Positions 22,912 to 26,084 of a DNA stretch of 64,000 nucleotides are shown here, piece after piece. Position 1 is the stretch's first letter. Each line of letters opens with the position of its first letter. Both the position numbers and the translations under genes were made by a program. The notes beneath the pieces are model-generated. The model had not been told where the DNA came from. It did no database searches and saw only the letters and a program-made list of their open reading frames with translations. This DNA is from an uncultured Alphaproteobacteria bacterium (lineage in GTDB: Bacteria > Pseudomonadota > Alphaproteobacteria > HIMB59 > GCA-002718135): NCBI GenBank assembly GCA_902623255.1, contig CACNSY010000001.1, forward strand, positions 143,463-207,462. Direction: 5' to 3'.

Positions 22912-24407
<1,496 letters not shown>

Positions 24408-24448: not shown

Positions 24449-24499
24449 ATCGTTCAACTCTTTTAGAGTCGGAAGTAGGCATTGTGCCGAAGGAACGCA
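24449..24499 (+). promoter_or_regulatory. Glutamine riboswitch aptamer, glnA RNA motif, copy 1
   Basis: AUCGUUCA-ACUC-uuuu-AGAGU-CGGAAGUAG-GGC-auugu-GCC-GAAGGAACGC; matches remembered glnA-motif core (CGUUCA...CGGAAGUAG...GAAGGAACGC). Confidence 0.9.
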
Positions 24500-24513
24500 T
24501 GCAAAAGTTATAA

Positions 24514-24567
24514 ATCGTTCAACCTATTTTTATAGGTCGGAAGTAAGCCATAAGCTGAAGGAACGCG
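24514..24567 (+). promoter_or_regulatory. Glutamine riboswitch aptamer, glnA RNA motif, copy 2
   Basis: AUCGUUCA-ACCUA-uuuu-UAUAGGU-CGGAAGUA-AGC-cauaa-GCU-GAAGGAACGC; stems covary with copy 1 while the core is unchanged. Confidence 0.9.
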
Positions 24568-24606
24568 CATCAAAAGCAGATTTCATAACTAGAGCATGAT
24601 TTAACC

Positions 24607-24634
24607 GGGTAACGCTGGATAGCATACCCTTTTG
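24607..24634 (+). promoter_or_regulatory. Hairpin plus U-rich tract before glnA; candidate riboswitch expression platform
   Basis: GGGTA-AC-GCT-GGAT-AGC-A-TACCC followed by TTTTG. Confidence 0.5.
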
Positions 24635-24653
24635 TTGAAGTAAGGAGATAGAT

Positions 24654-26084
24654 ATGAAATTAAAAAGCTCGACTCCAAAAGATTTAATGTCTGAAATTAA
24701 AGATATGGACATTAAGATGGTTGATATGCGCTTTACTGATATACCAGGAACAACTCAACATTTTACAATACCAATTAAATTTTTAGACGAAGATATATTT
24801 TCTGACGGACTTGGTTTTGATGGATCTTCGGTAAGAGGTTTCCAAGAAATTCAAGACAGTGATATGATTGTTTTGCCAGATGCAACAACAGCTTATATTG
24901 ATCCATTTTTTTCAGAAAAAACTTTGGCATTACATTGTAATATTAAAGATCCTGTAACTTTGGTTGACTATAGTCGTGACCCAAGAAATATTGCTAAAAA
25001 AGCTGAAGCCTATTTGAAATCATCTGGTATTGGTGACACAGCATTTTTTGGTCCAGAAGCAGAATTTTTTGTGTTTAATAACGTTCAGTTTGACTCAGGA
25101 TCAAATTTTGCATTTCATGAAGTTGATTCTGTTGAAGGTACTTGGAATAGTGGTGCTGATGAAAACCCAAATTTAGGTCATAAGCCTAGACATAAAGAAG
25201 GTTATTTTCCTTTACCGCCAGTTGATACACTTCAAGATGTAAGAACTGAAATGGTAATGACAATGCAAGACATTGGTCTTACAGTTGAAGCACATCACCA
25301 TGAAGTTGCAACAGGTGGACAATGTGAAATTGATTTAGAATTTTCGCCTTTACTAAAAATGGCTGATGATATGATGAAATATAAGTACGTTGTTAAAAAT
25401 GTTGCAAGACAACATGGAATGACAGCTACATTTATGCCTAAACCTTTATTCGAAGATAATGGTTCAGGTATGCACGTTCATCAAAGTGTTTGGAAAGACG
25501 GTGACACATTAATGTATAAAGAGGGTAACTATGCTAACCTAAGTGATTTAGCTCTAAATTATATTGGTGGTATACTTAAACATGCACCTGCTCTTTTAGC
25601 TTTTTGTGCTCCTACTACTAATTCTTATAAAAGATTGGTCCCAGGCTTTGAGGCTCCAGTGAACATTGTTTACTCTCAAAGAAATAGAACTGCATCTGTT
25701 AGAATTCCTGCTTATTCTCAAAGCCCTAAAGCAAAAAGAATGGAATTTAGATGTCCAGATCCAAGTGCAAATCCATACTTAGCATTCTCAGCAATGTTAA
25801 TGGCAGGATTAGACGGGATTAAAAATAAAATTAATCCTGGTGATCCAACAGATATAAATCTCTATGCTGCTAGCGATGAAGTTTTGTCTAAAATTCAATC
25901 TACGCCTGGATCTTTAGCTGAATCTCTTGAAGCTCTTGAAAAGGATCATGCATTTTTATTAGAGGGTGATGTATTCACCAAAGATGTAATTGAAACTTAT
26001 ATTAGCTATAAAAAAGAGAGTGAGGTTGATCCAATTAATATTAGACCTCATCCACACGAGTTTAAACTATACTACGACGTGTAG
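24654..26084 (+). CDS. glnA: Glutamine synthetase type I
   Basis: [32 protein letters not shown], Tyr-adenylylation region NPYLAF; SD TAAGGAGA. Confidence 0.97.

Follow-up and report, generated by a model that had tools for sequence, protein, structure and literature searches.

The glnA gene in the 64,000-nt stretch of alphaproteobacterial DNA analyzed here (the window) is preceded by two look-alike RNA segments, which raises the question of how glutamine synthetase is controlled in this organism and whether the two segments act as one device. A sequence-only reading of this DNA had placed two copies of a glutamine aptamer, 65 nt apart, between glnB and glnA. When the whole window was searched with cmscan, both copies were matched over their full length by RF01739 (Glutamine riboswitch) at scores well above the gathering score of 35 bits (Table 1), which bears out the identity of the aptamers as well as their start-to-start spacing; the downstream open reading frame is indeed glnA. 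No competing Rfam family was found at either aptamer in this search, and RF01704, the type-2 glutamine riboswitch or Downstream-peptide motif, was not matched at threshold in the window. It is nearly certain that both copies are type-1 glutamine (glnA-motif) aptamers, and they are predicted to bind glutamine.

Table 1. Parts of the glnA leader and its neighbours, in window positions.
Feature	Position	Strand	Evidence
glnB, nitrogen regulatory protein PII, 113 aa, upstream neighbour	24066..24407	+	ORF; PF00543, E 2.7e-33
Terminator-like hairpin and T run over the 3' end (last codons) of glnB	24389..24405 (hairpin), to 24415 with T run	+	One site against 0.2 expected in shuffles
Glutamine aptamer 1	24449..24501	+	RF01739, 64.3 bits, E 6.1e-12
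P1 of aptamer 1	24451..24455 with 24493..24497		
J2/3 of aptamer 1, CGGAAGUA	24470..24477		
Conserved 18-nt linker CATGCAAAAGTTATAAAT, proposed 5' strand of P0; it opens with the linchpin C of aptamer 1 (24498)	24498..24515	+	Near-invariant in 112 tandem loci
Glutamine aptamer 2	24514..24569	+	RF01739, 64.7 bits, E 4.7e-12
P1 of aptamer 2	24516..24520 with 24561..24565		
Linchpin C of aptamer 2	24566		
Conserved 3' element GATTTCATAACTAGAGCATGA	24579..24599	+	Near-invariant in 112 loci
AUAAC and GCAUG of the 3' element	24585..24589 and 24594..24598		Complementary to the linker (P0)
GAUUUCAUA of the 3' element with the start region	24579..24587 with 24653..24661		Alternative pairing, 9 bp
Hairpin GGGTA/TACCC between element and ribosome-binding site	24607..24629	+	Leader comparison, fold
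Shine-Dalgarno AAGGAG; glnA ATG	24642..24647; 24654..24656	+	Direct reading
glnA, glutamine synthetase, 476 aa, regulated gene	24654..26084	+	PF00120, E 4.2e-139; PF03951, E 3.6e-30

By direct reading, the stems are those that had been described: P1 is CGUUC/GAACG in both copies, while P2 (ACUCU/AGAGU in copy 1, ACCUA/UAGGU in copy 2) and P3 (GGC/GCC in copy 1, AGC/GCU in copy 2) differ between the copies yet remain paired. The compensatory evidence seen in these differences proved genuine, and it is much stronger among relatives than between the two copies of the window; in an alignment of 30 tandem leaders, 13 pairs of P2 and P3 stay paired through changes on both sides, with P1 invariant. 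The CGGAAGUA junction and the linchpin C after P1 were invariant in both copies of all 30 leaders, where the invariance of the junction is partly by construction since the tandem loci were gathered by a pattern that fixes it, whereas the linchpin C was not fixed. Across this alignment all ligand-binding positions are constant while the stems covary. The aptamers reach about 24569, and the feature about 24661 once the 3' element, the hairpin and the start region are counted. At its upstream side, the terminator-like hairpin at the 3' end of glnB may partially separate glnB from the glnA leader; a hairpin with a T run just before the leader suggests that glnA may have its own promoter, and a simple scan found no sigma-70-like promoter.

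The alphaproteobacterial host that the sequence-only reading had proposed can be specified as a member of the HIMB59/AEGEAN-169 lineage. The GlnA encoded in the window is 99% identical to that of the single-cell genome AG-337-I02 and 97-100% identical to that of many other ocean single-cell genomes. In the literature AG-337-I02 serves as a genus in the AEGEAN-169 marine group, which belongs to order HIMB59 and was once called SAR11 clade V (PMC8692485; PMC12965618), and GlnA identity indicates that the window genome probably falls in this genus. RF01739 matches were found in 97 of 100 sampled genomes of the window's family, with up to eight matches each and almost always as tandem pairs, and the tandem arrangement spans several genera of the family. 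These matches, together with E values of about 1e-12 found twice in tandem, rule out a chance match. Two family genomes, G001 (93% complete) and G059, were without a match, and a lineage-specific loss is possible in both. In the other family of the order, no RF01739 match was found in the genus sampled. Class-wide, 6 genomes among 385 had matches, all of them in the window's family and in one further family, f10, where 23 of the 32 genomes carry a match, in nearly every case a single copy; phylum-wide, the only match among 399 genomes was the window's own genome. The aptamers are therefore not a general SAR11 or alphaproteobacterial feature. One genome (G897) carries three identical single glutamine aptamers before the same unidentified open reading frame (L316, L317 and L318), and this triple copy has the appearance of a mobile or phage element.

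Where relatives are well assembled, their eight copies are arranged as four tandem pairs, found before glnA, before each of two neighbouring amtB genes and before an operon whose genes specify a circularly permuted ATP-grasp protein, an Alpha-E protein and a transglutaminase; in the window's family, aptamer copies were found only before nitrogen genes. The window's own genome has two pairs, at glnA and at the ATP-grasp operon, and no amtB in an assembly that is 87% complete, which is most simply explained by an unassembled locus. Genus g6 has one amtB with a pair and a second Amt gene with a single aptamer. In family f10, the single aptamer stands ahead of the same ATP-grasp gene in nearly all cases examined, and two of these loci (L323 and L327) are minimal riboswitches, in which the aptamer abuts the start codon and itself supplies the Shine-Dalgarno sequence. 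In other bacteria, operons of this ATP-grasp type accompany the proteasome-like protease Anbu, which is raised in nitrogen-limited Pseudomonas putida (PMC5666114), and nitrogen control of the ATP-grasp operon would fit this observation. All 27 ATP-grasp leaders, including L157 on the own contig C25, also contain an upstream open reading frame of 16-22 codons (e.g., MVKKLDSKKKFYSNLKRFTP), which ends a few bases from the ATP-grasp start and usually overlaps it as TGATG or TAATG, suggesting translational coupling. Downstream of amtB lies a gene for a small conserved protein (about 120 aa) that has no Pfam match (L142:4832-5206; homologues in L145, L149, L155 and L156); in genus g1 this gene is flanked by the two amtB genes.

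Sigma-54 (RpoN) was undetectable in 14 genomes of the order by a search that was positive in E. coli, B. subtilis and Caulobacter, so the usual RpoN-dependent NtrC route is probably unavailable to this lineage; a sigma-54-activator-type protein is still present in the window's family.

The two aptamers are joined by a linker of 17 or 18 nt, which is nearly invariant across 112 distinct tandem loci and reads CATGC-AAAA-GTTAT-AAAT in glnA leaders; amtB and ATP-grasp leaders lack one or two of the A residues that precede GTTAT. Downstream of aptamer 2 these 112 loci share a near-invariant element, ATTTCATAACTAGAGCATGA or ATTTCCATAGCTAAGCATGA, and tandem, linker and element are kept as a unit before glnA, the two amtB genes and the ATP-grasp operon. 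Neither linker nor element was present in the single-aptamer leaders examined. Ten matches to the linker pattern in viral contigs are regarded as chance, because none of them has an RF01739 match. CAUGC of the linker is complementary to GCAUG of the element, and GUUAU to AUAAC or AUAGC; the resulting helix, P0, has an outer part of 5 bp that is intact in all 108 of 108 loci; in linkers that read GUUAG or GUUUG, the pairing register shifts. RNAalifold predicts P0 unprompted (30/30 aligned sequences), and the linker-element duplex is better than with shuffled linkers in 19 of 19 representatives (p 0.003-0.027). The 30-sequence alignment gives no proof of compensatory changes in P0, whose columns hardly vary; nearest to such proof come the matched loop lengths on both strands, compared between glnA and amtB leaders, and the register shift of the GUUAG and GUUUG linkers. 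Together, the tandem pair would form one composite device, with P0 as the proposed switching helix; this helix, the genome-wide regulon and the question of sign go beyond the sequence-only reading. That reading took the tandem to imply cooperative glutamine sensing, which it may provide, but tandem aptamers in general can also act independently of each other.

With moderate confidence, the glnA leader is read as a composite translational switch that is turned off by glutamine. At low glutamine, the linker would pair with the 3' element to form P0, which encloses aptamer 2, leaving the glnA start codon free so that glutamine synthetase is made. In the solved glutamine riboswitch, a G of the junction is drawn by the bound ligand into a pair with the C that directly follows P1 on its 3' side (PMC11477058). 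The C at 24498 is both this linchpin C of aptamer 1 and the first base of P0, and bound ligand and P0 would therefore compete for it. With glutamine bound, the C that opens the linker would be captured at the base of P1 of aptamer 1 and P0 would give way; the released element could then base-pair through UUUCAUA with UAUGAAA of the start region, blocking glnA translation. Directly, this competition costs P0 one base pair only, and folding places P0 and the alternative state about 1 to 6 kcal/mol apart on average. When P0 is forbidden in folding, the accessibility of the start region falls in every locus class. The gain from element-start pairing exceeded that of shuffled elements (p<0.05) in 8 of 11 glnA representatives, and among the amtB and ATP-grasp representatives a single one reached significance; an element-start pairing common to all loci is thus partly supported, holding for glnA and not clearly for amtB or the ATP-grasp operon, and one common downstream mechanism is not established. 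The same device, with less clear, locus-specific downstream pairings, would repress the ammonium transporters and the ATP-grasp/Alpha-E/transglutaminase operon when glutamine is plentiful. From the competition for the linchpin C, the element-start pairing and the drop in accessibility, which suggest an OFF switch, we infer both the sign and translation as the level of control.

The sign deserves particular attention, as every glutamine riboswitch tested by experiment is an ON switch (PMC6316151). The leaders described here could work in this cyanobacteria-like way if glutamine stabilized aptamer 2, joined linker and element, favored P0 and thereby freed the start region; since P0 encloses aptamer 2, a folded aptamer 2 would indeed shorten the loop that P0 must close. 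This reading is nevertheless considered unlikely. Switching on glnA and amtB by glutamine would amount to positive feedback, whereas these genes are needed at low glutamine, making OFF the physiologically expected sign, and the linchpin C of aptamer 1 would be needed by both bound ligand and P0. Moreover, two f10 loci (L323:1488 in G916 and L327:1612 in G915) have the ATP-grasp start three bases after P1 and their sole Shine-Dalgarno inside the aptamer (GAAGGAACG-CAU-AUG), where glutamine can hardly do other than repress; by their arrangement, these loci lend independent support to the OFF sign. Seven leaders of phages or mobile elements were folded, and in them the Shine-Dalgarno lies within a helix whose first base is the linchpin C of the last aptamer, an arrangement that fits release of the Shine-Dalgarno by glutamine (ON). 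By contrast, the helix starting from the linchpin C of aptamer 1 in the window's family holds the anti-start element, so that the sign would invert.

Control might also be exerted by transcription termination, with the hairpin between element and Shine-Dalgarno as the terminator and the element as part of an antiterminator. The position of this hairpin is kept among relatives while its sequence is variable, and a T run follows it in some of them (glnA of genus g6, amtB2), but many glnA, amtB and ATP-grasp leaders have no such run and a terminator scan of the window found none at this hairpin, which makes termination distinctly improbable. The sequences of linker and element are more constant than pairing alone would demand and show no compensatory change, as might be expected if a protein or small RNA bound there; the aptamers would then still be glutamine riboswitches, without a switching helix. 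Against this, linker-element complementarity is significant in every representative and loop length changes in step on the two strands when glnA and amtB leaders are compared, and we give a mere binding site little credence. That the aptamers now lack any function, being relics or a mobile repeat, as several copies per genome and the occurrence of such aptamers in phages (PMC9004378) might suggest, is scarcely credible given the restriction to nitrogen genes in the window's family, the invariant ligand-binding positions within covarying stems and an arrangement that spans several genera.

The translational OFF switch favored here can be compared with systems described previously. With the RF01739 riboswitches tested in Synechocystis (gifB) and Synechococcus elongatus, the window shares P1, P2, P3, the CGGAAGUA junction, the linchpin C and a location in the leader of a nitrogen gene. 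It differs from them in its alphaproteobacterial host and in a consistent tandem with conserved linker and 3' element, and its family in the genes controlled (glnA, amtB and the ATP-grasp operon rather than gifB-like genes) and in the predicted OFF rather than ON sign. Glutamine riboswitches have also been reported in pelagiphages and other phages, including Melnitz-like phages (PMC9004378). A pattern scan of viral contigs found at least six with real tandem pairs among the matches listed. Five tandem leaders of this kind (L191, L196, L217, L253 and L275) have the same aptamer, the tandem and a translational-looking platform in common with the window; their linker, however, is 6-9 nt long and unconserved, their linchpin-C helix covers the Shine-Dalgarno directly and the 3' element is absent. 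The type-2 motif, RF01704, has the same ligand and a related core (PMC2864571) and is known from marine picocyanobacteria, where it precedes short open reading frames (PMC6316151); the window aptamers are type 1. Like the window, where two like aptamers in one leader have a single output, the tandem glycine riboswitch couples a pair of similar aptamers to one output and has a short conserved linker with a structural role, but its aptamer and ligand are unrelated, and the window linker would pair 3' of aptamer 2.

As early as 2010, the glnA motif, its tandem occurrence and its links to GS, PII, GOGAT and Amt genes were noted in cyanobacteria and marine sequences (PMC2864571), and a 2018 review regarded glutamine riboswitches as restricted to cyanobacteria, with the GS, PII and Amt cases known only from environmental sequences of uncultured strains (PMC6316151). 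Two HIMB59 papers that were searched contain no mention of riboswitches or glutamine; with subscription journals thinly covered, an earlier host report is possible. What is new is a defined host lineage, a regulon extending to the ATP-grasp operon, a composite architecture of linker and element, and a predicted OFF sign. The wider picture, in which a very abundant ocean lineage would combine a linker-element helix that inverts the sign from ON to OFF with a sigma-54-free regulon of glnA, the main amtB genes and a peptide-ligase/Alpha-E/transglutaminase operon, is plausible but tentative.

For the environmental glutamine riboswitches at GS, PII and Amt genes, at least one host can now be given, namely HIMB59/AEGEAN-169 (the former SAR11 clade V). 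The RNA device is nearly universal in one HIMB59 family, and control by glutamine riboswitches appears to run nitrogen uptake in a further major plankton group beyond the cyanobacteria, with an OFF-type glutamine riboswitch being predicted. The poorly understood ATP-grasp/Alpha-E/transglutaminase operon is tied to glutamine status in two families, and a concrete answer is offered to the question of how sensing of nitrogen status could work in a streamlined bacterium that lacks sigma-54.
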